Assembly: GCA_945904015.1 (NCBI GenBank)
Contig: CAMDPK010000070.1
Span: 1-36,484, forward strand
DNA: 36,484 bases
DNA from: Candidatus Kuenenia stuttgartensis
GTDB taxonomy: Bacteria; Planctomycetota; Planctomycetia; Planctomycetales; Planctomycetaceae
Direction: 5' to 3'
Shown here: positions 3,108-36,314 of the stretch, piece after piece
How the letters are laid out: every line of letters begins with the position of its first letter
Position numbering within the stretch: position 1 is the stretch's first letter
The notes under the pieces: generated by a model
The model's input: the letters and a program-made list of their open reading frames with translations, nothing else
Database searches by the model: none
What the model was told of the DNA's origin: nothing
Translations under genes and position numbers: made by a program

Positions 3108-3160
3108 TGGTGGCGCAAGGCGAAACAAAATCAGAGATCATCAAACTTGAAAGCCCCCGA

Positions 3161-3189
3161 CTTACTTCTCCCGTTCCGAACGGTATGAT
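3161..3189 (+). promoter_or_regulatory. Candidate promoter of leader copy A
   Basis: TATGAT (3184-3189) is a good -10 box. CTTACT lies 17 nt upstream and is a poor -35, suggesting activator dependence. CATCAAACT at 3139-3147 recurs at the same 13-nt spacing from CTTACT in copy C (30422-30430) but not in copy B. The predicted start is near 3196. Confidence 0.5.
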
Positions 3190-3305
3190 GCTCGCCGCTA
3201 CGGAGCCTGTGTCAGTTCGGAATCAGCTCCGTCGGATCATTGAATTGAATTTCGGATGACTCCTTGAAAGGCAACCCGGCCGTGCCGGGGGGCTGGTTGA
3301 AGAGT

Positions 3306-3356
3306 AAGCCGACGTGGTCGAAGCCCTCGGGGGATTCGACCACGTCGGCTTTTTTT
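3306..3356 (+). terminator. Intrinsic terminator of leader copy A
   Basis: The arms 3306-3322 and 3334-3351 (AAGCCGACGTGGTCGAA and its complement) pair perfectly around a short loop and are followed by seven T. The stem lies upstream of the ATPase start, as in attenuators or at the end of a small RNA. Confidence 0.9.
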
Positions 3357-3381
3357 GTTTCGTCGAGGCGGCAGTCTTTGG

Positions 3382-6219
3382 ATGAAGGAATCGATTGTGT
3401 CAACGGACGTGATGACGAAGAATCGGCCAGTACGCACGCAGTCGAGTGACGGGCGTGGCTCTCCGCCGCAGACGGCAGCGTGGCACATGCTCCCGGTGGC
3501 TGAGGCCGTCGAGCGGCAGCAGAGTGATGTTGCGCAGGGGCTGACTCAGGCCGAGGCGGCTCGGAGACTCGTGCAGTTTGGTCCCAATGCGTTGGCTCAG
3601 GCGCGTCAGCGTTCGACTCTGTCCATCTTTGTGGTTCAGTTCCAGAGCCTCATTGTGGCTTTGCTGGTTGGGGCGACGGCGATCGCTTTTGCCTTGGGCG
3701 AAAACATTGAAGCGATTGCGATCCTGGTGGTCATCGTCCTGAATGCCGCTATCGGTTTCTTCACCGAATGGAAGGCGGCGCAGGCGCTGTCCGCATTGCA
3801 AAAACAGGCGGTGCGGGTCGCTCATGTGATCCGCGATGGCGTGCAGAGCGAGATTCCCGCGGTCGAGTTGGTGCCGGGCGATCTGATCGTCCTGGCTGCC
3901 GGGGCACGAGTTCCCGCTGATGGACGCATCGTCGAATGTGTCCGATTGCAAATTGAAGAATCGGCACTGACTGGTGAGTCAAACGCGGTTACCAAGACAG
4001 CCGATCCGCTTCCCGACGAGGATGCGGCACTTGGTGACCGTCTTAATATGGCCGTCCTGGGCACGACGATCACGGACGGCCGAGGCCGATTGCTGGTGAC
4101 GGACACCGGCGCGCAAACCGAGGTCGGCAAGATCGGCATCCTGATTGATGAGGCGACCACTCGCGCCACTCCGTTGGAGCAAAAGCTGGCGCAGCTCAGT
4201 CGTCTGCTGATCGTGATTGTGTTGGCGCTGTGTGCCGTCATTGTCGTGGCGGGCTGGTTGCGCGGCGTGACTGACTTCTGGCACATGCTGGAGATCGGCG
4301 TCTCTCTGGCGATCGCCGCAGTGCCGGAAGGTCTGCCCGCTGTGGCCACCATGACGCTGGCGCTGGGAATGCAACGGATGGCTCGGATGCGTGCGCTCGT
4401 CCGCCGACTTCCCGCTGTCGAGACACTGGGTTCCACCACCGTCATCTGCACCGACAAGACCGGGACACTGACGAAGAACGAAATGACCGCGTGCGTCTTC
4501 ATGCTGGACCAACGCCGCGTTGAAGTGACCGGCACGGGATACGCGCCGGTGGGCAAGTTTCAAGACGGCGACAAGCCTGTGGATCCGCGCGCTGACGAAC
4601 ATCTTGCTCTGGCGCTGCGCATCGGCATGTTGTGCAACGATGCCAAAGTGGAACGCGCCGATGGCCACGAAACCGTGCTGGGCGATCCCACCGAAGCGGC
4701 CTTGATCGTCGCGGCGGAAAAGGCCGGGATGAACCCAGCCGACTTGGCTCCCGAATTTCCGCGACTCAGCGAAGTCCCGTTCGACAGTACCAGCAAGCGC
4801 ATGGTGACGGTGCATCGCTCGCCGCAGGGTCCGACGCTGGCGTTCGTCAAAGGTGCGCCGGCGACAGTGATCGCGTCGAGCAGTTCACAGTTCCGAGCCA
4901 CGGGAGTGACGCCCCTCACGGACGATGACCGCCGGCGCTGGGACGAGACGAACGAAAAGTTGGCCGGTGCGGCGCTGCGCGTGCTTGGCCTGGCGTATCG
5001 CGAATTGCCGGAGGGCTACACCGAGCCCGACTTCGATCGCGAGTTGACCTTCGTCGGCTTGGTCGGCATGAGCGACCCGCTGCGCGACGAGGCGAAAGCG
5101 GCCATCACCACTTGTCGCGAGGCGGGCATTCGGACCGTGATGATCACCGGCGACCAGCAGACGACGGCTGCCGAGATCGCGCGGCAACTGGGGCTTGATC
5201 GCAATCTTGAAGGCGGGCCGTTAGTCACCGTTCACGGTCGCGAGCTGACCGACCTGGACGCTGAAGGCTGGAAGCGGATTGTGGCCGACGCCGCCGTGTT
5301 TGCCCGCGTCTCTCCCGAGCACAAGCTGCGAATCGTCGAAGCGCTGCAACAACAGGGTCACATCGTCGCCATGACGGGTGACGGAGTGAACGACGCTCCG
5401 GCCATGAAGAAGGCGGACATCGGTATCGCGATGGGCATCAAGGGGACCGAAGTCGCCAAAGAAAACGCCGACATGGTGGTCACCGACGATAACTTCGCCA
5501 GCATCGTCGGGGCCGTCGAGCAGGGGCGGATCATCTACGGGAACATTCTTCGGTTCCTGCATTACCTGCTGTCGTGCAACATCTCAGAAATCCTCACCGT
5601 GTTCGTCGCCCTGATGATTGGCTGGCCGCTGCCGCTGGTGGCGCTGCAGATTTTGTGGCTCAATTTGATTACCGACATCTTCCCTGCCTTCGCTCTCGCG
5701 TTGGAGCCGTCGGCACCGGACGTGATGAATCGCCCGCCACGCGATCCGCAGGAGTCTCTGCTCACTCCCCGTTTCGTCGGCCTGATTGTCTGGCAGGGAG
5801 TGCTGCTCACCGGAGTCACTCTCTTTGCCTTTGCCATCGGCATGCACTGGCACGGGACCGACGGCGAGGGCTTGCGACAGGCAACCACGATGGCCTTCAT
5901 GACGCTGGCTCTGGCTCAGGTCTTCCACGCCTTTAACGCGCGTTCGCAGAGACGATCAGCATTCACCAGCCGGCTGTTCACGAACGGCTGGCTCTGGGCG
6001 GCGACGGGGATGTGCCTGATCCTTCAAGCCGCCGCGGTGTACCTGCCGCTCTTGCAGAAGGTGCTTCATACTGTCCCGCCGACGGTCTCGGACTGGGGAG
6101 TAATTGCTGCTTGTTCTTTGCTGCCCGTGCTCGTGGTGGAGTTGGTCAAAGTGATCCAGCGAGTCGCGTTAGGCGTCCATCCATCATCAACCGGAACGCG
6201 TCATACTGAGCACGAGTAA
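3382..6219 (+). CDS. P2-type cation-transporting ATPase (calcium-ATPase-like)
   Basis: A full-length P2-type ATPase of 945 residues: N-terminal cation-ATPase domain, actuator with LTGES, PEGLP in M4 (315-319, Glu316), phosphorylated Asp358 in DKTGTLT, hinge TGDGVNDAP, and M6 N761-x-x-T764-D765. PEGLP plus NxxTD is the arrangement of the SERCA-type calcium site, so calcium export is the best guess; sodium, potassium or manganese is not excluded. The ATG at 3382 was chosen because the in-frame TTG at 3355 lies inside the terminator T-run; a weak GAGGCGG precedes it. ATG 3412 is an alternative. The gene follows leader copy A by 25 nt, so it is the first gene to be affected by that element. Phosphoketolase follows 272 nt later. 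Confidence 0.9.
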   Translation: MKESIVSTDVMTKNRPVRTQSSDGRGSPPQTAAWHMLPVAEAVERQQSDVAQGLTQAEAARRLVQFGPNALAQARQRSTLSIFVVQFQSLIVALLVGATAIAFALGENIEAIAILVVIVLNAAIGFFTEWKAAQALSALQKQAVRVAHVIRDGVQSEIPAVELVPGDLIVLAAGARVPADGRIVECVRLQIEESALTGESNAVTKTADPLPDEDAALGDRLNMAVLGTTITDGRGRLLVTDTGAQTEVGKIGILIDEATTRATPLEQKLAQLSRLLIVIVLALCAVIVVAGWLRGVTDFWHMLEIGVSLAIAAVPEGLPAVATMTLALGMQRMARMRALVRRLPAVETLGSTTVICTDKTGTLTKNEMTACVFMLDQRRVEVTGTGYAPVGKFQDGDKPVDPRADEHLALALRIGMLCNDAKVERADGHETVLGDPTEAALIVAAEKAGMNPADLAPEFPRLSEVPFDSTSKRMVTVHRSPQGPTLAFVKGAPATVIASSSSQFRATGVTPLTDDDRRRWDETNEKLAGAALRVLGLAYRELPEGYTEPDFDRELTFVGLVGMSDPLRDEAKAAITTCREAGIRTVMITGDQQTTAAEIARQLGLDRNLEGGPLVTVHGRELTDLDAEGWKRIVADAAVFARVSPEHKLRIVEALQQQGHIVAMTGDGVNDAPAMKKADIGIAMGIKGTEVAKENADMVVTDDNFASIVGAVEQGRIIYGNILRFLHYLLSCNISEILTVFVALMIGWPLPLVALQILWLNLITDIFPAFALALEPSAPDVMNRPPRDPQESLLTPRFVGLIVWQGVLLTGVTLFAFAIGMHWHGTDGEGLRQATTMAFMTLALAQVFHAFNARSQRRSAFTSRLFTNGWLWAATGMCLILQAAAVYLPLLQKVLHTVPPTVSDWGVIAACSLLPVLVVELVKVIQRVALGVHPSSTGTRHTEHE

Positions 6220-6317
6220 GGTTGGCACAAACCCCACCGAGCTTGTCTCATTGGACTCTACACCACTTACTGATCGAGACTCAGATCGCTGTCTTGCTTG
6301 TGCAAGAGCCAACTCTT

Positions 6318-6417
6318 CCCGATTCGCTGTCTCTCTCAATTCGCTGTCGAAACCTGTCCTGATTGCGGGTCCGACGACAAGTCATCGACAGCGAATTGAG
6401 AGAGACAGCGAATCGGG
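6318..6417. repeat. Perfect 33-bp inverted repeat between ATPase and phosphoketolase genes
   Basis: The arm 6318-6350 starting CCCGATTCGCTGTCTCTC is perfectly complemented by 6385-6417 across a 34-nt loop. It is the only structure in the 272-nt gap. It has no T-run, so it reads better as a dispersed repeat or processing hairpin than as a terminator. Confidence 0.85.
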
Positions 6418-6491
6418 ATCTTTGCAAACCGGACGCTATCGCGTTCCGGCTGATTCATAAGGTCAGTTCGTAAGGAAGAAAAATCGATTTC

Positions 6492-8912
6492 ATGACTGCT
6501 ACTCTCTCCGCTGAACTGCTGCGAAAAATGGATGCCTACTGGCGAGCCGCGAACTATTTGTCGGTCGGACAGATTTATCTGCTCGACAACCCGCTGCTGC
6601 GCGAGCCGCTCAAGCTGGAGCATGTGAAGCCTCGGCTTGTGGGGCACTGGGGGACGACGCCGGGATTGAATTTCATCTACGTGCATCTGAACCGAGTCAT
6701 CCAGGAGCATGACCTCAACGTGCTCTATGTCACCGGTCCTGGTCACGGTGGACCGGGCCTCGTTGCCAACACATATCTCGAAGGCACCTACACTGAGATT
6801 TATCACGACATCTCGCAGGACGAAGCGGGGATGCAGCGGCTGTTCAAGCAGTTCTCGTTTCCCGGCGGCATCCCCAGCCATGTCGCGCCGGAAACGCCCG
6901 GCTCGATTCACGAAGGGGGCGAACTCGGCTATGCCCTGTCGCACGCTTTCGGAGCGGTGTTCGATAACCCCGACCTGATCGTCGCCTGCGTGGTCGGTGA
7001 CGGAGAGGCAGAGACCGGGCCACTCGCGACCAGTTGGCACTCGAACAAATTCCTCAATCCCGTGCATGACGGCGCGGTGCTGCCGATCTTGCACTTGAAC
7101 GGCTACAAAATTGCTGGCCCGACGGTGCTCGCGCGCATCAGCCATGAAGAACTGGAGCAACTCTTTCGCGGTTACGGCTACACGCCGTACTTCGTCGAAG
7201 GGGATGACCCGCAGGCGATGCACCAGCTCATGGCCGAAACGCTCGACAAAGTCTTTGCTGAGATTCGGCTGATTCAACAAGACGCCCGAAACGTAGCCGG
7301 CTCTCGCCGAGAGCCGTTTCCCGCTCTCGGCGAGAGCGGGCTACGTTCGAGCGGCCCACAATTCAAACGCCCGCGTTGGCCGATGATCGTCTTGCGAACT
7401 CCCAAAGGTTGGACCGGGCCGAAGGAAGTGGATGGCAAGCAGGTCGTCGGCACCGTCCGTTCGCATCAAGTGCCGATGGGCGAGATGTCACATCCGAACC
7501 ACGTTCGCATCCTCGAAGAGTGGATGAAGAGCTATCGCCCGGAGGAACTGTTCGACGCGGCTGGCAAACTGAACGCCGAACTGGCGGAACTGGCTCCGCG
7601 CGGAACGCGACGCATGGGAGCGAACCCGCACGCGAACGGCGGCGAGTTGCTCCAAGACCTGCGCCTGCCGAATTTCCGCGACTATGCCGTCGAGGTGGCT
7701 CAACCCGGAGCAATCGACGCCGAGTCCACGCGGTTTCAAGGTCAGTTCATTCGGGATGTGCTCAAGCTCAACGCCGATGAAAAAAACTTCCGAGTCTTCA
7801 GCCCCGACGAGACGTCCTCCAACCGTTGGAACGCCGTCTTTGAAGTCACCGACCGAGCGACCACGGCGGACATCCTCCCTGGTGATGATCACCTCGCGCC
7901 CGACGGCCGCGTCATGGAAATGCTCAGCGAGCATCAGTGCCAAGGCTGGCTCGAAGGTTATCTGCTCACCGGCCGGCATGGGTTCTTCTCGTGCTATGAA
8001 GCCTTCATTCACATCATCGACTCGATGTTCAACCAACACGCCAAGTGGCTGAAGGTCACGCGGCAGATTCCGTGGCGGCGGCCGATCGCATCGCTCAACT
8101 ATTTGCTCAGTTCGCATGTCTGGCGGCAGGATCACAACGGATTCAGTCATCAAGACCCCGGCTTCATCGACCACGTCGTCAACAAGAAGGCCGAGATCAT
8201 TCGCGTCTACCTTCCGCCCGATGCCAACACGCTCCTGTGCGTGACCGACCATTGCCTGCGCAGCCGCCACTACGTCAACGTCATCGTGGCTGGGAAGCAA
8301 CCGGCTCCGCAGTGGCTGAACATGGACCAGGCGATCAAGCACTGCTCCGCCGGCATCGGCATCTGGGAGTGGGCCAGCAACGACAAGGGAGGCGAGCCGG
8401 ACGTCGTCATGGCGTGTTGCGGTGATGTGCCGACGCTGGAAACGCTCGCCGCCGTGGAACTGCTGCGTGGGTTCTTTCCCGACCTGAAGGTGCGAGTCAT
8501 CAACGTGGTGAACCTGATGAAGCTGCAACCTCCCCGCGAGCACCCGCATGGCCTGAGCGACCCTGACTTCGACTCGCTCTTCACAACCAACAAGCCGATC
8601 CTCTTCGCGTTCCACGGCTATCCCTGGCTGATTCATCGGCTCACCTACCGTCGGACCAATCACGAGAACTTGCACGTCCGGGGCTACAAGGAAGAAGGGA
8701 CGACAACGACACCTTTTGACATGGTGGTCCTGAACGATCTCGACCGCTTCCGTCTCGTCTCCGACGTGATCGACCGCGTGCCGAGCTTGGGAGCGCAAGC
8801 CGCCTACGCCAAGCAGGCGATTCGCGACAAGCTGATCGAACACAAGCAGTACATCACCGAGCATGGCGAGGACATGCCTGAGATTCGCGACTGGAAATGG
8901 CAGGGGACGTAG
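6492..8912 (+). CDS. xfp: Xylulose-5-phosphate/fructose-6-phosphate phosphoketolase
   Basis: A thiamine-diphosphate enzyme that splits xylulose 5-phosphate (and often fructose 6-phosphate) with phosphate to acetyl phosphate and a shorter sugar phosphate in the cytosol. The 806 residues match the family length. Visible marks are [10 protein letters not shown], the signature [14 protein letters not shown], the ThDP/Mg motif GDGEAETG (169-176), and the second signature [13 protein letters not shown] (546-558). An in-frame palindrome (7290-7347) adds about 20 residues near 267-285 in a linker before [10 protein letters not shown], probably a surface loop. The ATG at 6492 begins the conserved N-terminus; AAGGAAG lies about 15 nt upstream. 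The acetate kinase start is 2 nt past the stop, so the pair is one operon turning sugar phosphate into acetate and ATP. Confidence 0.96.
7290..7347. repeat. 25-bp palindrome inserted in frame in phosphoketolase
   Basis: The arms 7290-7314 and 7323-7347 (AACGTAGCC then GCTCTCGCCGAGAGC) pair with one mismatch around an 8-nt loop. The ORF stays open and reads residues not expected in phosphoketolases at this point. Confidence 0.9.
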
Positions 8913-8914
8913 CC

Positions 8915-10075
8915 ATGCACATCCTCTGCTTGAACAGCGGCTCGTCGTCCCTGAAGTTTGCCGTCTATCGTTGTGACAATGGCGACGACGTCGAGCTTGC
9001 GCGCGGGGCAGTGGAAGGCATCTCACAAGAGCACGGCCGACTCTGGATACAGCAGCCGAAAGACAGCCAGCGCCAAGAGAGCCAGCGTTCCTTCGTCTCA
9101 CATCAAGCCGCGTTTGAAGCGGCGATGGATTCGCTGGCGACGCTGGAGTTGCCGGCCTTCTCGGTCATCGGTCACCGAGTGGTGCATGGCGGCGATCAGT
9201 TCGATGGTCCCACGCGAATCGACCCGCAAGTTCTCGGCACGCTGCGAACGCTCGTGCGTTTCGCCCCGCTGCATCTGCCTCCGCAGATCGCCATGATCGA
9301 GTTGGCTCAACAACGATTCTCCGAACTGCCTCAAGTGGCCTGCTTCGACACGGCCTTCTTTCGGCACATGCCGGAGCTTGCGCAGCGCTACCCGTTGCCG
9401 AGATTCCTGTGGGACGCGGGAGTCCGCCGCTACGGCTTTCACGGCTTGTCGTACGAATCCATCCTGGCCTCGCACCACGCAGCGAGACTCGGACGCACGA
9501 TCATCGCCCACCTCGGCAACGGTTGCAGCATGACCGCAGTCCAAGACGGTCGGCCTGTCAACACCACGATGGGCTTCACGCCGGCGGGCGGCTTGATGAT
9601 GAGCACCCGCAGCGGCGACCTCGATCCCGGCGTTTTGATTTATCTGATGGATCATCAGGGATACGGCCCGCGCGACATCGAACGTCTGGTGCATCAGGAA
9701 TCCGGACTCAAAGGTGTGTCGGGGCTGAGCGGCGACATGCAGACGCTGCTTTCCGTTCGAGGCGACAATCCTCAAGCCGCGCTCGCCATCGACATGTTTT
9801 GTGACAGTATCCGCCAACAGATCGGAGCCTTCGCGGCAGTGTTGGGCGGACTCGATCGCTTGATCTTCACGGCCGGCATCGGCGAACGCGCCGTCTTGGT
9901 ACGTCGCGACATTTGTCACGGTCTGAATCATCTCGGCATCGCCTTGGACGAAGCCGCCAATGCCGCGAACTCTGGTCGAATCAGCACCGCGCAGAGCACC
10001 TGTGCTGTGGAAGTCGTCTCGACCAACGAAGAGCTGATGATCGCCCGGCACAGCGCCGCTTTCAGCGCAGCATGA
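8915..10075 (+). CDS. ackA: Acetate kinase
   Basis: Transfers phosphate from acetyl phosphate to ADP, giving acetate and ATP, and so uses the product of the phosphoketolase encoded 2 nt upstream. The 386 residues carry the whole ASKHA acetate kinase set: LNSGSSSLKF near the start, GHRVVHGG (substrate Arg), FDTAFF (catalytic Asp), GFHGLSYES (catalytic His), STRSGDLDPG (catalytic Arg), FTAGIGE and STNEE (metal-binding Glu). The ATG at 8915 was preferred over the in-frame ATG at 8897, because the family begins directly at HILCLNSGS and AGGGG sits 9 nt upstream. Length is slightly under the usual 395-405 with no motif missing. Confidence 0.96.
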   Translation: MHILCLNSGSSSLKFAVYRCDNGDDVELARGAVEGISQEHGRLWIQQPKDSQRQESQRSFVSHQAAFEAAMDSLATLELPAFSVIGHRVVHGGDQFDGPTRIDPQVLGTLRTLVRFAPLHLPPQIAMIELAQQRFSELPQVACFDTAFFRHMPELAQRYPLPRFLWDAGVRRYGFHGLSYESILASHHAARLGRTIIAHLGNGCSMTAVQDGRPVNTTMGFTPAGGLMMSTRSGDLDPGVLIYLMDHQGYGPRDIERLVHQESGLKGVSGLSGDMQTLLSVRGDNPQAALAIDMFCDSIRQQIGAFAAVLGGLDRLIFTAGIGERAVLVRRDICHGLNHLGIALDEAANAANSGRISTAQSTCAVEVVSTNEELMIARHSAAFSAA

Positions 10076-15256: not shown

Positions 15257-16969
15257 ATGAGCCAATCAATGACCCTATCACGGATGACGTTCGGGCTGGT
15301 GCTTTGCCTTGGCGCGGTGTTCATCGCGGGCGGCTGCGCGCAGACTCGCGGCCGAGTCGCGGCCAAACCCGTGCCAACGCAATGGCGAGCCGGAGGGCGT
15401 CAGCCCCCGGACGATCTGAACTCTGAAATCTCAAATACCAAATCTCAAACGGTCCGGGGGCTGACGCCCTCCGGCTCGCCAGATCAACCAGATCAAGAGG
15501 TCCGTCGCGCGGCAAATGCGGACTCGGCGATTCAACTTGTCAGCGACGAGCAGCCCGCATCAACAACCGCAGCGGATTCGCAGATCGTGCCGCCAGAGCC
15601 TGCGGAAGTCAGCCCGACTCCGAACGCGGAGCCTCTGCAACTCGATGACGTGATCGGCTCGGTCATCGCGAGCTATCCGTTGTTGCGATCGGCGATGTTC
15701 GGACGAAACATCGCGCAGGGGGACTTGCTCGCGGCGAATGGTGAGTTCGATCTGAAGCTCAAGGCCGACACGCTCAACATGCCGCTCGGTTTTTACGAGA
15801 ACTACCGGCAGGCGGTCGGGGCCGAGCAACCGTTGTTCGGCGGCGGCTCGGTGTTCGGCGGCTATCGCCTTGGGACCGGCAACTTCCCGGAGTGGTACGG
15901 CGATCGACGGACAAAACTCGGTGGCGAGTTCAAAGCGGGAGCCACGATCCCGCTGGCTCAGAACCGCAACATCGACGACCGCCGCGCGAGTCTCTGGCGA
16001 AACCAGTGGGAGGTCCAGTCGGTCGAGCCGGAAATTCAAGCGCAGCTCATTGCGTTCGTCCAAGCGGCGTCGATCACCTATTGGAATTGGGTCGCCGCCG
16101 GACAGAACGTGCGCATCACCGAAGAGCTGCTCAAGAACGCGACCGAACGCACGGACAATCTTCGCAAGCGAGTCGATCAAGGCGACGCTCCGCCCATCGA
16201 GTTGGTCGATAACGAACGCCTGATCGTGTCGCGGCGGACCAAGCTGATCGACGCCCGCCGCAAGTTTCAGCAATCGGCGTACAAGCTGTCGCTGTTCCTG
16301 CGCGATGAGTCCGGCCAACCGCGCGTCATCGACGAATCACACTTGCCGCCCGAATTCCCGCAGGCCGATGATCCGTCGCAACGCAACCTCGACGCCGACC
16401 TTCAATCCGCCGTCGCGAGTCGCCCGGAGTTGCGTGTACTCGCGATCCTGCGCGAGCAACTCAGCATCGACCTCGCCAACGCACAAAACATGTTCTTGCC
16501 GCAAGTCGATGCGGTGCTCGTCGGCTCGCAAGACGTCGGCAACCCGGCCGATCCCCAGAAGGACGACAAGTCACCGTTTGAGTTGGAAGGGGGCCTGATC
16601 GCCAGCGTCCCGCTGCAACGACGCAAGGCGCGGGGCAAGTCGCAGGCCGTCGAGGGCAAGTTGGCTCAACTGCAAGCCAAGACGCAGTTCACTCAGGAGA
16701 AGATCGTCGCCGAAGTGCAATCGGCGAGTGCCGCGCTGAATGCCGCGTACCAGCAGCTTGAGCAAGCTCATCAAGCCCTGGACCTCGCCCGCCAAATGGA
16801 AGTGGCCGAGCGTCGCAAATTCGACCTCGGTGACAGCAACCTGCTGCTGGTCAATCTGCGAGAACAAGCCACCGCCGATGCCGCCGCCACCGAAGTCGAA
16901 GCCCGCCTCAACTTCTTCGACGCCAAAGCCGACTACCGCGCCGCACTCGCCACCGATGTCGTCCCGTAG
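15257..16969 (+). CDS. TolC-family outer-membrane efflux lipoprotein
   Basis: 570 residues. The N-terminus has a signal peptide ending in the lipobox AGGC (Cys about 27), then a low-complexity Pro/Ala linker up to about 125, and two outer-membrane efflux repeats (about 130-340 and 375-565) rich in long Ala/Gln/Leu helices such as QLEQAHQALDLARQME. It should form the outer-membrane duct for the ABC/HlyD pair upstream. The linker holds an in-frame 29-bp palindrome (15384-15480), expected to be tolerated there. The ATG at 15257 starts the signal peptide directly. Nothing obvious terminates the operon after it. Confidence 0.87.
   Translation: MSQSMTLSRMTFGLVLCLGAVFIAGGCAQTRGRVAAKPVPTQWRAGGRQPPDDLNSEISNTKSQTVRGLTPSGSPDQPDQEVRRAANADSAIQLVSDEQPASTTAADSQIVPPEPAEVSPTPNAEPLQLDDVIGSVIASYPLLRSAMFGRNIAQGDLLAANGEFDLKLKADTLNMPLGFYENYRQAVGAEQPLFGGGSVFGGYRLGTGNFPEWYGDRRTKLGGEFKAGATIPLAQNRNIDDRRASLWRNQWEVQSVEPEIQAQLIAFVQAASITYWNWVAAGQNVRITEELLKNATERTDNLRKRVDQGDAPPIELVDNERLIVSRRTKLIDARRKFQQSAYKLSLFLRDESGQPRVIDESHLPPEFPQADDPSQRNLDADLQSAVASRPELRVLAILREQLSIDLANAQNMFLPQVDAVLVGSQDVGNPADPQKDDKSPFELEGGLIASVPLQRRKARGKSQAVEGKLAQLQAKTQFTQEKIVAEVQSASAALNAAYQQLEQAHQALDLARQMEVAERRKFDLGDSNLLLVNLREQATADAAATEVEARLNFFDAKADYRAALATDVVP
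15384..15480. repeat. Perfect 29-bp palindrome in frame in the TolC-like gene
   Basis: The arm 15384-15412 (GGCGAGCCGGAGGGCGTCAG onward) is perfectly complemented by 15452-15480 around a 39-nt AT-richer loop. A second copy is at the left window edge inside the kinase gene. The loop sequences differ between copies. Confidence 0.92.
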
Positions 16970-18911: not shown

Positions 18912-18941
18912 GTTGCCGCCCAATCGAAAAAAAACACGGAC

Positions 18942-18970
18942 TGAACTTCTCCCGTTCCGATTGGTATGCT
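18942..18970 (+). promoter_or_regulatory. Candidate promoter of leader copy B
   Basis: TATGCT (18965-18970) with TGAACT 17 nt upstream. ACTTCTCCCGTTCCGA between the boxes is shared with copy A. The upstream CATCAAACT box of copies A and C is absent. Confidence 0.45.
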
Positions 18971-19087
18971 GCCCGCCGCATGGAGCCTGTGTCAGTTTGA
19001 AATCGGCTCCGTCGGATCATTAAATTGGATTTCGGATGACTCATTGAAAGGCAACCCGGCCGTGCCGGGGGGCTGGTTGAAGAGTAG

Positions 19088-19139
19088 GCCGACGTGGTCG
19101 AAGCCCTTCAGGGGATTCGGCCACGTCGGCTTTTTTTTT
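19088..19139 (+). terminator. Intrinsic terminator of leader copy B
   Basis: GCCGACGTGGTCGAA pairs with TTCGGCCACGTCGGC (one G-U pair) and is followed by nine T (19131-19139). Confidence 0.9.
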
Positions 19140-19198
19140 GCCCTCAAGGCATGGCATCTGCCCATGAGCCAGTGATCTCGGATGAAATGGAAACAACG

Positions 19199-19573
19199 AT
19201 GAAGGCGATTCAGGTGTACGACAAGCCGATGTGCTGTTCGACGGGTGTCTGCGGGCCGCAGGTTGATCCGGTGTTGCCGCGATTCGCGGCCGATCTGGCT
19301 TGGCTGAAATCGCAGGGACATCAGGTCGAGCGATTCAACTTGGCCCAGCAGCCGGCGGCGTTCGTTCAGAACTCTGAGGTTCAACAGCTCTTGGCCTCGC
19401 AAGGGACAGACTGTCTGCCGCTGATCACGGTGGATGGTCGCATTGTGAGTCGGAGCGAATATCCGTCGCGGGACATGCTTGCCATGTGGGTTGACTCAGA
19501 GACCGCAAGCGAGGCTTTGCAGATGGTCAGCGAAGGCGGCGCGTGTTGCAGTTCCTCCGAAGGCTGCGGCTGA
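19199..19573 (+). CDS. arsD: Arsenical metallochaperone ArsD
   Basis: 124 residues beginning MKAIQVYDKPMCCSTGVCG, the ArsD signature. Cys12, Cys13 and Cys18 fall at the positions known to bind As(III)/Sb(III) and hand it to ArsA in the cytosol. The C-terminus adds ACCSSSEGC (Cys116, 117, 123), similar to the extra Cys pairs of plasmid ArsD. The central ERFNLAQQPAAFVQN is also typical. The ATG at 19199 matches the family N-terminus; the in-frame ATGs at 19187 and 19151 would add unconserved residues. ArsA follows 115 nt later across a palindrome. It is the first gene after leader copy B. The order arsD-arsA is as in known ars operons, but no arsR, arsB or acr3 is near. Confidence 0.93.
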   Translation: MKAIQVYDKPMCCSTGVCGPQVDPVLPRFAADLAWLKSQGHQVERFNLAQQPAAFVQNSEVQQLLASQGTDCLPLITVDGRIVSRSEYPSRDMLAMWVDSETASEALQMVSEGGACCSSSEGCG

Positions 19574-30358: not shown

Positions 30359-30443
30359 AGCGCTCTTTGGAAGGAGAAGGTCATTCGTCACATGTGGCTC
30401 AAAGAGAATCCTTGCAGAGTTCATCAAACTCGCGAATCTCCGA

Positions 30444-30473
30444 CTTACTTCTCTGATTCACCAACGGTACGAT
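30444..30473 (+). promoter_or_regulatory. Candidate promoter of leader copy C
   Basis: TACGAT (30468-30473) with CTTACT 18 nt upstream and CCGACTTACTTCTC shared with copy A. Confidence 0.45.
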
Positions 30474-30589
30474 GCCCGCCGATATGGAACCTGTGTCAAA
30501 CTGCAAACAGTTCCATCGAGACGCTGAATTGAATTTCGGATGACTACTTAAAAGGCAACCCGGCCGTGCCGGGGAGCTGGTTGAAGAGT

Positions 30590-30639
30590 AAGCCGACGTG
30601 ATCGGATCCCTCAGGGGGTTCGGCCACGTCGGCTTTTTT
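30590..30639 (+). terminator. Intrinsic terminator of leader copy C
   Basis: AAGCCGACGTG pairs with CACGTCGGCTT, with a weaker upper stem and CCCTCAGGGG apex, followed by six T. Confidence 0.88.
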
Positions 30640-30689: not shown

Positions 30690-31175
30690 ATGATCGAAAC
30701 CCAATCAGCAATTGAGACCCCTTCAGAAAGAGCCGAACTCCCGTCAGAAATCGGAGCGGCGAAACAGTTGGCTGACGTGGTGCGTCAGTTTGAGAAGGAG
30801 CGGACGGGCCGCATGCCAGTATCTGTCACTGCGGAACTGGTGGATGTTTCGCTGGTGATCACTCTGCACGGTGAGTTGTCCCCCGCGGAGATAGACCTCG
30901 CCAAAACACCGGATGGGGCTGCTGAGGTCCAAGAGCTGCATCGACAACTTTTCCTCACCTCCTGCGGTTCACTGCTCAAGGAGATTGAGGTCATCACCGG
31001 AGTCGCCGTGCTGGAAGCCACCTCGGAAGTCACCACGGAGACCGGCACCGTGGTCCAGGTTTTCGTGCTGGCCGCCAGTGTCGCAGCCAGTACGTGGACC
31101 GAATTGTCGAGCGAACTGACTTCTGTGAATCCGTTATGCGGCAATAAGGAACGGGTCTTGGACGGCGAAGGCTAG
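30690..31175 (+). CDS. DUF2294-like protein
   Basis: 161 residues, cytoplasmic. The middle (about 25-130), with KERTGRMPVSVTAELVDVSL, LHGELSPAEIDLAKTPDG, LHRQLF and ETGTVVQVFVLA, follows the DUF2294 pattern seen in many bacteria and archaea. The biochemical role of that family is not established. It is the first gene after leader copy C and heads a compact set with a coiled-coil protein, a 2TM protein and a PP2C phosphatase. AGGGAG precedes the ATG at 30690; the longer frame from 30642 would begin inside the leader terminator. The 40 or so extra C-terminal residues are unlike the domain core. Confidence 0.75.
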   Translation: MIETQSAIETPSERAELPSEIGAAKQLADVVRQFEKERTGRMPVSVTAELVDVSLVITLHGELSPAEIDLAKTPDGAAEVQELHRQLFLTSCGSLLKEIEVITGVAVLEATSEVTTETGTVVQVFVLAASVAASTWTELSSELTSVNPLCGNKERVLDGEG

Positions 31176-32043: not shown

Positions 32044-32949
32044 ATGCCACTTCCCCCGACTGATCCTGAAATCAACTTGAGTCCGCCCGGTCAACCCGAT
32101 CCCGAATCTCAACCGATGAGCGTGCGCAGCTTCGGCATGACAGACCGCGGGCTTGTGCGCGAATCGAACGAAGATCAGTTCTTGATCGCGGTATTAACCA
32201 AGGCGCTAGAAATTCAGCAGTCCAGCTTGCCCCAGGCACAGGCTAAGTATGCGGATGACAAGGGACATATCTTCGTGGTCGCCGACGGGATCGGGGGATC
32301 TCCCGCCGGCGAAGAGGCCAGTGCTCTGGCGGTGAAGTCCATCGAAGATTTCCTGGTCAACACACTCAAATGGTTTTTTCAGCTCAGAGGGCCCGACAAA
32401 GAAAACGTGGTCGCCGAGTTTCAGGACGCGCTGCGGCGGGCTGATGCCAGTATTTTCAGAGAGGTCGCACAACATCCCGAACTCAACGGAATGGGCACGA
32501 CTCTGACGCTCGCTTATAGCTTGGGAGCAAACCTGTTCGTGGCCAACGCCGGAGACAGCCGCTGCTACTTGTTCCGCGATGGTAAACTCGTGCAATTGAC
32601 CTGCGACCATACTCTAGCCCAGGACATGCTCCGAAAAGGGATGGTCCCGCTGGCCCAATTAGACCGTCTCGATCGTCGCATCGGACATCTCATCACCAAC
32701 GCCATTGGTGGCTACACACCGGGTGTCTGGGCGGAAGCACATAAGGCCACGCTGAATCCCGGCGACGTCTTGCTGCTGGCGACTGACGGTCTGACGAGCG
32801 ACGTCCCAGACGAACGGATCGCAGACACATTGCGGGACGAGCCTGATCCCAAGCTTGCCTGCGAGCGACTCGTGGCTCAGTCGCTTGAGCAGGGTGGGCG
32901 CGACAATGTCACCGTCATTGTGGCACGCTACGAAACATTCGCTGAGTGA
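32044..32949 (+). CDS. PP2C-type serine/threonine protein phosphatase
   Basis: 301 residues with the PP2C metal-binding set in order: RESNEDQF (about 38-45), VADGIGG (about 79-85), GMGTTLTLAY, NAGDSRCYLFRDG, ATDGLTSDV and GGRDNVTVIVARY near the C-terminus. It should remove phosphate from Ser/Thr residues in the cytosol using two Mn/Mg ions. No regulatory domain is attached. It ends the set that starts after leader copy C, and its partner kinase is not in the window. The ATG at 32044 starts a short Pro-rich head; the domain itself begins near residue 27, where an internal ATG also exists. Confidence 0.92.
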   Translation: MPLPPTDPEINLSPPGQPDPESQPMSVRSFGMTDRGLVRESNEDQFLIAVLTKALEIQQSSLPQAQAKYADDKGHIFVVADGIGGSPAGEEASALAVKSIEDFLVNTLKWFFQLRGPDKENVVAEFQDALRRADASIFREVAQHPELNGMGTTLTLAYSLGANLFVANAGDSRCYLFRDGKLVQLTCDHTLAQDMLRKGMVPLAQLDRLDRRIGHLITNAIGGYTPGVWAEAHKATLNPGDVLLLATDGLTSDVPDERIADTLRDEPDPKLACERLVAQSLEQGGRDNVTVIVARYETFAE

Positions 32950-33113
32950 GGGATTGTTGCGGAAGCCATCGAGAATTCGGCCTCTGCCCCTTAAAAGAAC
33001 GAGTTGGAAATACCAGCCAGCGTCGGCATGTGATCGACAGTCACGCTTAGGCTGTTCGACGACGGAGGCGGTTCCACTGAGACATCGCTGGGGTGCCCGT
33101 TACACTGCCGCCC

Positions 33114-33512
33114 ATGACACCACAACAGTTCATCGCCAAGTGGCGGCTGGCGAATCTCTCGGAGCGAAGCGCCGCACAGCAGCACTTTCTCGATCTGTGC
33201 GAGTTGCTCAATCAGCCGAAGCCGGTGGAAGCGGACCCGGAGGGGGCGTGGTACACGTTTGAGCGAGGCGTCCACAAAGTTGGTGGCGGCGAGGGTTGGG
33301 CCGACGTCTGGAAGCGTGGGCATTTCGGTTGGGAATACAAAGGCAAGCGGAAAGACCTGAAGGCGGCCTACAACCAGTTGCTGCAATATCGCGAGGACTT
33401 GGAGAACCCGCCGCTGTTGGTGGTCTGCGATCTCGACCGGTTTGAGGTTCACACCAACTTCACGGGCACGGCGAAGAAGGTGTTCGATAGGCATTCGATC
33501 TGGAAGGGCTGA
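33114..33512 (+). pseudogene. N-terminal fragment of a type IIG-like DNA methyltransferase/restriction enzyme
   Basis: From ATG 33114 about 125 residues (MTPQQFIAKWRLANLSERSA, LDLCELLNQPKP, WYTFERG, GEGWADVWKRGHFGWEYKG, LENPPLLVVCDLDRFEVHTN) match the N-terminus of large MmeI-like proteins of about 900-1000 residues that combine endonuclease and methyltransferase. The match ends near 33488, and the frame stops at 33512. The matching C-terminal piece is at 34575-35087, so one gene was broken and its middle, with the SAM and catalytic motifs, lost. A short N-terminal peptide could still be made, but enzyme activity is not expected. Confidence 0.8.
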
Positions 33513-34400: not shown

Positions 34401-34574
34401 GGTTCACCTCTGCGGGCCTAACAGTTGAGTCTCCCGCACGCGGGATCGCACGGGACGACGGTGGTTTGGTTTTGTTCGGGTTGGGTGACAAAGTGTCGTT
34501 GCGGGTTGAGTCTGTCAAGAAACATTCGCTTTGGCAGCGGGGGCGGTTGGCTTCCAAGGCCGCGTTCACAATCG

Positions 34575-35087
34575 TTCGCGTCGGCGTGCTTCGAGACGTT
34601 TGCGTTTCCGTCGGCGACGGAGGCTCAGCGGGAGGCGATTGGGGCGGCGGCGGGGGAGTTGGATCGGCTGCGGAACAACTGGCTCAACCCGCCGGAGTGG
34701 ACGCGGACCGAGACGCTCGAATTCCCCGGCTCCACCACCGGCCCGTGGGCACGCTACGTCGATCCGGCCGTAGGTCAGCCTTTCCAGGCTGACCCGAACG
34801 CTCCACACAACGTCGATCGCGCGACAGGTCAGCCTGGAAAGGCTGACCTACGGATCGGCACCGTCCGCTATCCACGCTTGGTCCCGCGCGACGCGGCGTG
34901 CGCGGAGCAACTCCAGAAACGGACGCTGACCAATCTCTACAATCAGCGTCCGACGTGGCTCGACCTGGCCCATCGGAAGCTCGATGCAGCGGTCTTCGCC
35001 GCCTATGGCTGGTCGCCAACGCTGTCCGACGACGAACTCCTCGCCGCACTGCTCCGCCTGAATCTGGAACGGGCCGGATCGACGTAG
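34575..35087 (+). pseudogene. C-terminal fragment of the type IIG-like DNA methyltransferase
   Basis: The frame ending at 35087 reads ACFETFAFP, ELDRLRNNWLNPPEWTRTET, LEFPGSTTGPWARYVDP, GTVRYPRLVPRD, LQKRTLTNLYNQRPTWLDLA and HRKLDAAVFAAYGW, the conserved C-terminus of the same MmeI-like proteins as the fragment at 33114. Homology begins about 34575; 34401-34574 upstream shows no recognisable coding. A palindrome (34768-34853) adds about 28 residues between VDP and GTVRYPRL. No start codon with a ribosome-binding site is seen. Confidence 0.8.
34768..34853. repeat. Perfect 27-bp palindrome in frame in the methyltransferase fragment
   Basis: CCGTAGGTCAGCCTTTCCAG onward (34768-34794) is perfectly complemented at 34827-34853 around a 32-nt loop. 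The reading frame is kept, as for the other palindromes inside genes here. Confidence 0.9.
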
Positions 35088-35541: not shown

Positions 35542-35648
35542 CCGCAATCGCTGGGATGTCGAATTGGCAGATTTGGTGGCTGGCATTGATGGTCGCCGCC
35601 TTGGGGAAGGCTCCTGGAGACGTGTGAACGCGGTCCAAATCGGTCGGT

Positions 35649-36119
35649 TTAACAGCCCACGGCTCCAGGATGGCCTCTCATCACTCCGGGATGATGACAG
35701 ATCGCTCCGGGATGATGACACATGACCCCAGGATGCCAACCCACGAGTCCAGGATGGCAGCCCACGGCCCCAGGATGCTGACTCATGGCCCCAGGATGCT
35801 GACTCATGGCCCCAGGATGCTTCCTCATGGCTCCAGGATGCTTTCTCATGGCTCCAGCCTGCCCCCTCATGAGTCCAGGCTGGCCACTCACGGGTCCAGG
35901 ATGGCAACCCACGGCTCCAGCACGCTCACTCATGGCCCCAGGCTGGTCACTCACGACTCCAGGATGCACCCGCATGAGTCCAGGAGGGTGACTCATGGCT
36001 CCAGGCTGCTGCCCCATGCGTCCGAGAGGGGGACTCACAAGTCCGGGCTGCTGGCGGACGACTCCAGGCATGGCCCTGCTGATCCCAGCCTGCTGACTGA
36101 CGGCCCACGGGATCGCCAT
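35649..36119 (-). CDS. Possible repeat protein read from the 21-bp array
   Basis: A minus-strand frame from ATG 36119 (GTG 36122 just before it) ends at 35649, almost exactly spanning the array, with AGGGA four bases upstream. It would give about 156 residues of a degenerate HPGAMSQ-type heptad repeat, uncharged to mildly basic, with no signal peptide. Competing frames are 35670-36236 on plus (188 residues, HGPRMLT repeat) and 35413-35907 on minus, which runs through the terminator. I favour this frame only because its ends fit the array; none may be translated. Confidence 0.25.
   Translation of the reverse strand: MAIPWAVSQQAGISRAMPGVVRQQPGLVSPPLGRMGQQPGAMSHPPGLMRVHPGVVSDQPGAMSERAGAVGCHPGPVSGQPGLMRGQAGAMRKHPGAMRKHPGAMSQHPGAMSQHPGAVGCHPGLVGWHPGVMCHHPGAICHHPGVMRGHPGAVGC
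35656..36117. repeat. Tandem array of about 22 units of 21 bp
   Basis: The units follow CTCATGGCTCCAGGATGC plus three variable bases, with no insertion or deletion across 462 bp although units differ from each other. The unit length is a multiple of three, so each open frame gives a seven-residue repeat: HGSRMLT on plus, and QHPGAMS or SASWSHE on minus. The period suggests either coding constraint or young unit-wise expansion. Confidence 0.9.
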
Positions 36120-36216: not shown

Positions 36217-36314
36217 AAGTGCAAAGTGCCGAGTGAAGAATGCAAAGTGCAAAGTGTCGGACACGGCCTTTTTGTCACTCTTCACTTTGCACTCTTCACT
36301 CTGCACTTTGCACT
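36217..36314. repeat. Degenerate GTGCAAAGTG-type palindrome
   Basis: Repeated AGTGCAAAGTG and GAGTGAAGAATGC units (36217-36256) are complemented by CACTCTTCACTTTGCACTC units (36276-36314). It is similar in style to the GAGTGG palindrome in the kinase gene. The minus-strand frame across it is a by-product. Confidence 0.8.

Follow-up and report, generated by a model that had tools for sequence, protein, structure and literature searches.

A terminator-bearing leader RNA that looks like an apparently undescribed switch before planctomycete stress-protection genes

Results

A leader module recurs three times in the window

The window (the whole 36,484-nt stretch of DNA analysed) contains three copies of a module of ~200 nt, at 3158-3357, 18937-19139, and 30440-30639, all on the plus strand. 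A first-pass annotation had placed three copies at these coordinates, and a repeat scan of the window recovers all of them as one family (D2) of three 177-nt copies, starting at 3179, 18959, and 30463. Copies 1 and 3 have further common sequence upstream of the 177-nt repeat (D16). Downstream of a promoter-like site, each copy has a 5′ hairpin, then a conserved core, and finally a strong intrinsic terminator. The features of the three loci are the following.

3162..3189, plus strand: promoter-like site of copy 1, by sequence (TTACTT 3162-3167, 16 nt, TATGAT 3184-3189)
3200..3232, plus strand: variable 5′ hairpin of copy 1 (P1), by folding and covariation among the three copies
3252..3255, plus strand: UCGG of copy 1, proposed antiterminator strand (with the near-invariant CGG)
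3259..3305, plus strand: core hairpin of copy 1 with internal loops, closed by ACU/AGU, by covariation
3307..3356, plus strand: intrinsic terminator of copy 1, AAGCCGACGTGG..CCACGTCGGCTTTTTTT
3309-3312, plus strand: CCGA in the terminator of copy 1, proposed antiterminator partner
3382..6219, plus strand: cation-transporting P-type ATPase, first gene behind copy 1 (Pfam)
18942..18970, plus strand: promoter-like site of copy 2, by sequence (weak TGAACT, 17 nt, TATGCT)
18980..19012, plus strand: 5′ hairpin of copy 2
19030..19139, plus strand: core and terminator of copy 2 (hairpin 19039-19085, terminator 19087-19139)
19199..19573, plus strand: ArsD, first gene behind copy 2 (Pfam)
30445..30473, plus strand: promoter-like site of copy 3, by sequence (TTACTT 30445-30450, 17 nt, TACGAT 30468-30473)
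30484..30516, plus strand: 5′ hairpin of copy 3
30534..30639, plus strand: core and terminator of copy 3 (hairpin 30543-30589, terminator 30591-30639)
30690..31175, plus strand: MpsC (DUF2294) gene behind copy 3 (Pfam)
32044-32949: PP2C gene of the copy 3 set

The covariation that had been claimed for P1 is correct: in the ACGGAGC..GCTCCGT stem, one pair reads C-G, T-G, and T-A in the three copies, and another changes from G-C to A-T. Folding of the 171-nt leader of copy 1 gives a z-score of −5.58, and none of 200 shuffled sequences is equally stable, so the fold is not a product of chance. From the end of the terminator to the likely ATG, the gap is ~25 nt for the Ca-type P-ATPase (3382), ~59 nt for ArsD (19199), and ~50 nt for MpsC/DUF2294 (30690), in agreement with the 25-60 nt given earlier; the ArsD start was chosen from the ArsD-like beginning of the protein, and another in-frame ATG lies at 19151.

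A distinct gene set stands behind each copy, again as first proposed, and Pfam identifies the leading members as Ca-type P-ATPase, ArsD-ArsA, and MpsC-PP2C. The P-type ATPase behind copy 1 is followed by phosphoketolase and acetate kinase genes (6492-10075). Behind copy 2, ArsD is followed by ArsA, rhodanese, MBL-rhodanese, TauE, and a P-type ATPase, that is, an ArsD-ArsA set with sulfur/persulfide-type genes.

The window holds some further features. ORFs at 33093-33512 and 34425-35087 match the N-terminal and C-terminal domains of an MmeI-type restriction-modification protein, the C-terminal match being below the curated cut-off, and the gene looks broken. At 35637-36098, 16 copies stand in a 21-nt register, a heptad-length repeat if coding. 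Long inverted repeats with arms of 27-44 nt (34768-34794/34827-34853, 36218-36314, 2267-2369, and 6317-6418) are unrelated to the element, and a GTCCGGGGGCTGACGCC repeat occurs in direct and inverted copies at 39-73, 15452-15486, and 15383-15419.

Thirteen copies in the host genome define a 104-nt unit

The host genome (7.43 Mb in 286 contigs, 91.7% complete) holds 13 copies of the element, ten beyond the three of the window. A DNA search returned 19 rows, six of which are the terminator palindrome on the other strand. A covariance model built from 12 host-genome copies (R1) recovers the same 13, all with at least 62 bits; copies 2 and 3 of the window score 117.8 and 115.9 bits, both being among the 12 rows that built the model.

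Six host copies have a long 5′ part in common, one is truncated where its contig ends (C133:5-115), and the remaining six have just a 104-nt core and terminator, which we therefore take as the family unit. It corresponds to the 3′ 104 nt of the module (3250-3353 in copy 1), and the sequence of P1 varies widely between copies of the wider family. On contig C133, two copies stand in tandem 19 nt apart with a terminator on each, and the second member has neither its own promoter nor its own 5′ hairpin. When both arms are required to be exact, the terminator motif GCCGACGTGG..CCACGTCGGC is found at nine sites of the host genome, all nine in element copies, which rules out a generic terminator.

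The core is a covarying hairpin

Our alignment of the family (A5) comprises 145 matches, 143 of them distinct rows, from which echoes of the terminator were excluded by a score cut. The core forms a long hairpin of ~55 nt with several internal loops, and the terminator follows directly. From the base upward, the hairpin consists of an ACU/AGU helix (10-12 with 54-56), a 3x3 loop, a URA/UUR helix (16-18 with 48-50), an NGC/GCN helix (21-23 with 43-45), an AA/GG loop, and a GC-rich tip.

Across the 143 distinct rows, 92.8% of the cells are paired (82.1% when shuffled), and changes on both sides are seen in 29 of 32 pairs, against 21.5 in shuffled alignments. Double-change cells number 468, compared with a shuffled mean of 124.7 (0/500 shuffles as high) and at most 91 when the partners are slid. 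The closing helices Pa and Pb (ACU/AGU and URA), which are absent from the model used to fit the alignment, contain 34 double-change cells versus 7.1 shuffled. Near-invariant positions are CGGA (4-7), AC (10-11), GUA (55-57), and CCG (60-62), with G5, G6, and A7 kept in 144, 143, and 142 of the 145 rows, respectively. The 5′ arm of the terminator is also part of the sequence consensus, and its sequence is unusually conserved. The 55-nt 5′ leaders of 157 copies have a mean folding z of −1.44.

Rfam 15 yields no match at the gathering threshold in the whole window and a single one in 14 homologous loci, an unrelated group II intron. With the limit relaxed to E ≤ 5, the best sub-threshold scores are 14.7-22.9 bits against thresholds of 45-67. 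The remark that the module resembles no known riboswitch class thus holds for Rfam 15, where we find no meaningful match.

Core positions 7-18 (3256-3267 in the window) can be read as AUG-NNN-NNN-stop, and an AUG with an in-frame stop is present in 60 of 145 rows. A minimal leader ORF (AUG-ACU-NNN-stop, as in copies 1-3) was considered and rejected. AUG is replaced by AAG or AAA in 39 rows, and the stop triplet is frequent both without AUG (59/77) and with it (60/68). Given this replacement, and a stop that is common without AUG too, we regard the three-codon ORF as a by-product of the helix.

A candidate antiterminator shares the terminator arm

Outside the ACU/AGU helix, the two strands contain three more bases each (AYG/AAG), followed by CGG/CCG complementarity. 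Since CCG is part of the terminator 5′ arm, the antiterminator and terminator folds would be mutually exclusive. In isolation, segment 1-65 folds into the longer hairpin in all six examples inspected, and over 147 copies its stability exceeds that of the core alone by a mean of 7.7 kcal/mol. The terminator, at about −33 kcal/mol, is far above this gain, so termination is the expected default and any switching would have to be kinetic.

In the CGG/CCG helix, 96.9% of cells are paired and two are double changes, a number reached in 129 of 500 shuffles; significant covariation is lacking because the strands scarcely vary. Of the 16 terminator pairs, 13 have between 4 and 55 double changes; only 60-99, 61-98, and 62-97 have none, and these three are exactly the pairs whose CCG strand is also used by the proposed antiterminator. 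The lack of double changes at CCG would be a telling sign: they are predicted by a double constraint, and likewise by protein contact. Among distant copies, the pair G6-C60 is replaced by A-U in one (L113), while pair 4-62 is C.A, A.A, and U-A in three AT-rich ones, so that support from the latter is mixed. One match (L120) retains the core and terminator and has no CGGAYGACU strand. An extension of the antiterminator through positions 1-2 found no support.

These comparisons make it probable that the element is a cis-acting transcription attenuator, an orphan riboswitch-like or protein-responsive leader RNA. Transcription would begin at a sigma70-type promoter ~50-70 nt upstream, and the transcript would present the variable 5′ hairpin first and the conserved core hairpin next. 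By default, transcription would stop at the built-in terminator, leaving the genes off. Alternatively, the core may extend outward through the 3x3 loop (AYG/AAG) and the CGG/CCG helix, capturing the 5′ arm of the terminator. A bound signal, either a small molecule or a protein, would lock this antiterminator and permit read-through into the stress operon. We lean slightly toward a small molecule over a CsrA-type protein.

Stress-type genes recur downstream

Among 146 downstream proteins, Pfam recognises MpsC (13), FKBP (6), PAS (6), BON (5), KaiC (4), E1-E2 (P-type) ATPase (4), ice-binding-like (4), sigma70 (3), CsbD (2), and CheB/CheR (2) families, and the 25 most frequent of the 80 families cover about one-third of the proteins. 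The tally took the longest ORF starting within 400 nt of the element, a choice that may take the wrong frame, and the family counts are therefore lower bounds. Behind the C133 tandem, a CsbD-like protein identified by eye lies in another frame than the longest ORF. An NCBIfam scan gave mostly overlapping kinase and ATPase models, with Csp1-like copper-storage proteins (six members) as a further family, and GlsB/YeaQ-like, DUF892-like, and acetate-kinase-like genes were also found downstream by eye.

The recognised targets are largely of the general-stress type (MpsC, BON, CsbD, KaiC, FKBP, and P-type ATPases), and taken together they resemble a general stress response. In Bythopirellula polymerisocia Pla144, which has at least two copies (on L092), a gene that appears by eye to be acetate-kinase-like (L092:4979-6214) is directly behind one of them. 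Together with the phosphoketolase and acetate kinase genes in the set behind copy 1, this raises the possibility that the regulon extends to fermentative metabolism.

An insertion-type csrA gene is linked to the element

A tblastn and HMM scan of the element loci revealed a CsrA gene behind the element, on the same strand, in ten loci. When aligned, these ten proteins all have ~6 extra residues behind their VVGG stretch, at the point where in ordinary CsrA the next strand follows; this insertion is absent from the nine ordinary host CsrA paralogs aligned. Examples are found at L022:8119-8295, L021:8049-7876, and L089:4050-3871. The last comes from a record titled Candidatus Kuenenia stuttgartiensis; since L180/G529, a genome of the host's family, contains an identical csrA stretch, this label may be wrong. 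Pseudomonas RsmN/RsmF, for which we obtained only weak matches, has an insertion in the same region.

A search of the family with this subfamily found at least 14 genes with at least 85 bits in 12 genomes; three lower-scoring CsrA matches among those listed, which align without a gap, bring this to at least 17 genes in 14 genomes. All 14 genomes with the insertion among the matches listed carry elements, against a background of 54 element-positive genomes in 170. One further match (G058) has a shorter insertion and is outside the genes checked for position.

We checked 16 insertion-type csrA genes, leaving out one (G125 C47). An element stands upstream on the same strand in 14 of them, and within the first 1.5 kb in 12. 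The 14 distances range from 62 nt to 3.4 kb, with other genes between in the farther cases. No element lies within 1.5 kb of the insertion-type csrA of L209 and L210, and none within 1.5 kb of ordinary csrA in 26 loci (10 in the host and 16 in other genomes, some of them element-free). Viewed from the elements, csrA is found within 1.3 kb in seven cases versus ~0.1 expected for the 137 elements with enough flank, an expectation that we estimated from the density of csrA in the host (12 genes in 7.43 Mb); the seven include two from related genomes (L077 and L151). A tandem locus with a shorter flank (L097) provides an eighth csrA neighbour. We regard it as very probable that the insertion-type CsrA belongs to the circuit.

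CsrA is present in all 170 family genomes, with 3 to 16 matches each and 12 in the host. For this large repertoire, we found no description of a division of labour among the papers listed by a literature search on the subject. CsrA copy number was rejected as a predictor of element number: a raw rho of 0.22 (p 0.003) falls to a partial rho of 0.08 (p 0.28) with genome size allowed for, and within genera rho is 0.10 (p 0.30). These correlations used raw match rows, including terminator echoes, and counted all CsrA paralogs.

As to the trans factor, CsrA itself, perhaps as the insertion-type paralog, might bind the GGA at positions 5-7, control the antiterminator, and autoregulate. The conserved GGA and the linkage to the insertion-type gene and to genomes that carry it speak for such a role, and the presence of CsrA throughout the family is compatible with it. 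RNA-binding proteins often autoregulate via their own leader, which also counts in its favor. Nevertheless, we consider this sub-hypothesis rather doubtful. Several of the most element-rich genomes (G034, G109, G118, G145, and G117) have ordinary CsrA as their best match, so the insertion-type protein is not an obligatory regulator; ordinary CsrA occurs in all 170 family genomes, and the number of CsrA copies does not track that of the elements when genome size is allowed for. In addition, GGA elsewhere in the leader is not clearly enriched (145 versus 132.5, sd 8.9), so that a second dimer site is lacking, and C4 before the GGA is atypical of CsrA sites.

Copies are patchy and clustered in planctomycete genomes

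The covariance-model search of planctomycete genomes proposed with the first-pass annotation finds further copies with covariation. Model R1 has matches at E ≤ 0.01 in 51 of 150 family genomes, and a model built from 145 rows (R2) has matches at E ≤ 0.001 in 54 of 170 family genomes and 23 of 58 genera. Across the phylum, R2 matches 18 of 392 sampled genomes, four of which belong to the host's family, and places the element in several families; the four weakest of these 18 matches (26.8-34.1 bits) are doubtful. In a scan for the exact pattern with one genome per species (84,980 bacterial and archaeal), 23 stretches were found, all in planctomycete-named records, L089 being the one with the Kuenenia label. 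Raw numbers of matches per genome are inflated by opposite-strand echoes of the palindromic terminator, and from the set used for flanks two weak echo rows were removed by hand (162 to 160 matches, 158 distinct).

The occurrence is patchy and clustered. A single-contig genome of 7.28 Mb (G001) has nine copies among the matches listed, four of them within ~20 kb and four within ~11 kb. This clustering suggests stress-gene islands and makes duplication together with such islands plausible. The very strong terminator and the clusters would suit a constitutive damper, that is, a terminator-leader that sets low expression and spread by duplication with the islands, with no switching. Such a damper needs neither the near-invariant CGGAYGACU, nor a covarying hairpin with internal loops, nor a CCG devoid of compensatory change, and the element extends to several families of the phylum; we judge this reading improbable next to that of a switchable attenuator.

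The element precedes genes in a fixed orientation

The nearest coding ORF downstream is on the same strand in 125 of the 146 copies with sufficient flank and on the opposite strand in two, with none called in 19. Upstream ORFs are mixed (62 same-strand, 42 opposite, and 31 none, of 135). The codon-usage score by which ORFs were called had been trained on 99 long ORFs from the element loci, and, as the copies are related to one another, these counts are not independent trials. Copies are thus not placed at random relative to genes. Among neighboring copies separated by less than 600 nt, seven pairs have both members on one strand (11-159 nt), nine are divergent, and none convergent, counts that include several related loci. 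Each member of the same-strand pairs has its own terminator.

In 156 copies, the positions of the best sigma70-like site cluster at 45-75 nt upstream of the core, and sites at 50-80 nt upstream are found in 50% of these, compared with 28% of shuffled sequences. Letter by letter, the consensus is TTGCCT and TATAAT with a spacing of 16-17 nt, part of which is due to the E. coli weights applied. The intrinsic terminator sits between this consensus-predicted promoter and the start codon. The element is most likely a cis-acting leader rather than a free sRNA or a transposon end: the downstream same-strand bias, the tandem and divergent arrangement, and the promoter-like sites fit a leader, and a free sRNA does not fit them.

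The first-pass annotation had left the choice between a shared attenuator and a small RNA family. In the latter case, short terminated transcripts would be trans-acting, with separate promoters for the genes downstream. A promoter-like site and a terminator do flank a conserved RNA of ~150-170 nt, and the unusual conservation of the terminator arm might be read in the same way. However, besides the strand bias of the downstream ORFs, 23 of the 125 called starts lie at most 52 nt from the terminator, which leaves little room for a separate promoter, and five tandem pairs are merely 11-21 nt apart, with no room for a second one. We therefore hold an independent sRNA family to be quite improbable, and that half of the proposal finds no support; the attenuator half is supported, with covariation, cis position, tandem terminators, and a candidate antiterminator on its side.

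A mobile repeat, transposon end, or REP-like DNA element, to which several copies per genome and a patchy occurrence might point, has a negligible chance in view of the compensatory changes across divergent copies, the fixed orientation to genes, and the lack of any match to the copy 1 sequence in plasmids and phages, to the exact pattern in viral contigs (0 matches), or of relevance in Rfam, so that no identity with a known repeat or transposon end emerged.

Discussion

Several known systems have features in common with the proposed attenuator. In ANTAR-controlled and LicT/BglG-type leaders, a protein stabilizes a hairpin that overlaps the 5′ arm of the terminator, as may be the case here. 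ANTAR sites consist of two small hairpins and RAT of one short hairpin, whereas the core of the element is ~55 nt long with several internal loops. ANTAR proteins were rejected as a general factor: the host genome has none (91.7% complete, 13 copies), and they are absent from 20 of the 27 genomes with at least six element matches. CsrA/RsmA-bound leaders and the CsrB/RsmZ RNAs share GGA with the element, which also has csrA paralog genes behind it; they contain many GGA motifs, whereas the element has one conserved GGA and overlaps an intrinsic terminator. T-box leaders also set an antiterminator against a terminator. The element differs from them in having no T-box match in our Rfam scans of the window and the homologous loci, and none of the 25 commonest families downstream is concerned with aminoacyl-tRNA or amino acids.

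The crcB and pfl motifs, as described in the available part of PMC2864571, are likewise structured 5′ leaders with a terminator overlapping the conserved part and with several gene classes behind them. There, the overlap was taken to mean that stabilization of the structure should turn the genes on (PMC2864571), and our reasoning for a default-off element with a signal for ON is the same. Unlike crcB and pfl, the element belongs to no Rfam family, includes the terminator 5′ arm in its consensus, and has stress genes and a csrA paralog as targets. The same part of PMC2864571 lists a Rhodopirellula-1 motif, a candidate cis-regulatory RNA of Proteobacteria and Planctomycetes with no Rfam accession and with a question mark in the first column of its table row; for want of an accession, the Rfam scan may not test it. 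Compared by description alone, the element differs in its strong covariation and in being found, by exact-pattern scan, in planctomycete-named records only. Identity with Rhodopirellula-1 is unlikely, as that motif is listed for Proteobacteria too.

The available part of PMC2864571 describes no such element, and neither planctomycete names nor csrA turned up in a word search of PMC8632094. Searches of the literature on the topic, on Rhodopirellula-1, and on CsrA autoregulation and termination brought up no description of the element among the papers listed, and those on DUF2294/MpsC gave only unrelated papers among the matches listed. What we describe looks like an apparently undescribed switch before the stress-protection genes of planctomycetes.

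Most known classes of riboswitch and attenuator are concerned with metabolism, and a multi-copy leader RNA gating a stress regulon would be unusual. The element would offer a concrete handle on how stress defence is activated in planctomycetes. With a common terminator arm and a near-invariant CGGAYGACU, the switch could be tested with few mutations; the linkage to a csrA paralog points to a candidate regulator, and the covariance model is a ready means to find the regulon in planctomycete genomes. More tentatively, it is possible that the general stress response of planctomycetes is run, in addition to sigma factors, by a dedicated class of leader RNA, in which one signal, conveyed by a small molecule or a CsrA-type protein, frees many operons and the insertion-type CsrA, itself a product of the circuit, feeds back. 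If this is true, operons for membrane, osmotic, metal, and redox defence, protein folding, and sensor kinases would be released together, and the element would define, as far as the literature was searched, the first regulon of intrinsic-terminator attenuators with a CsrA link.
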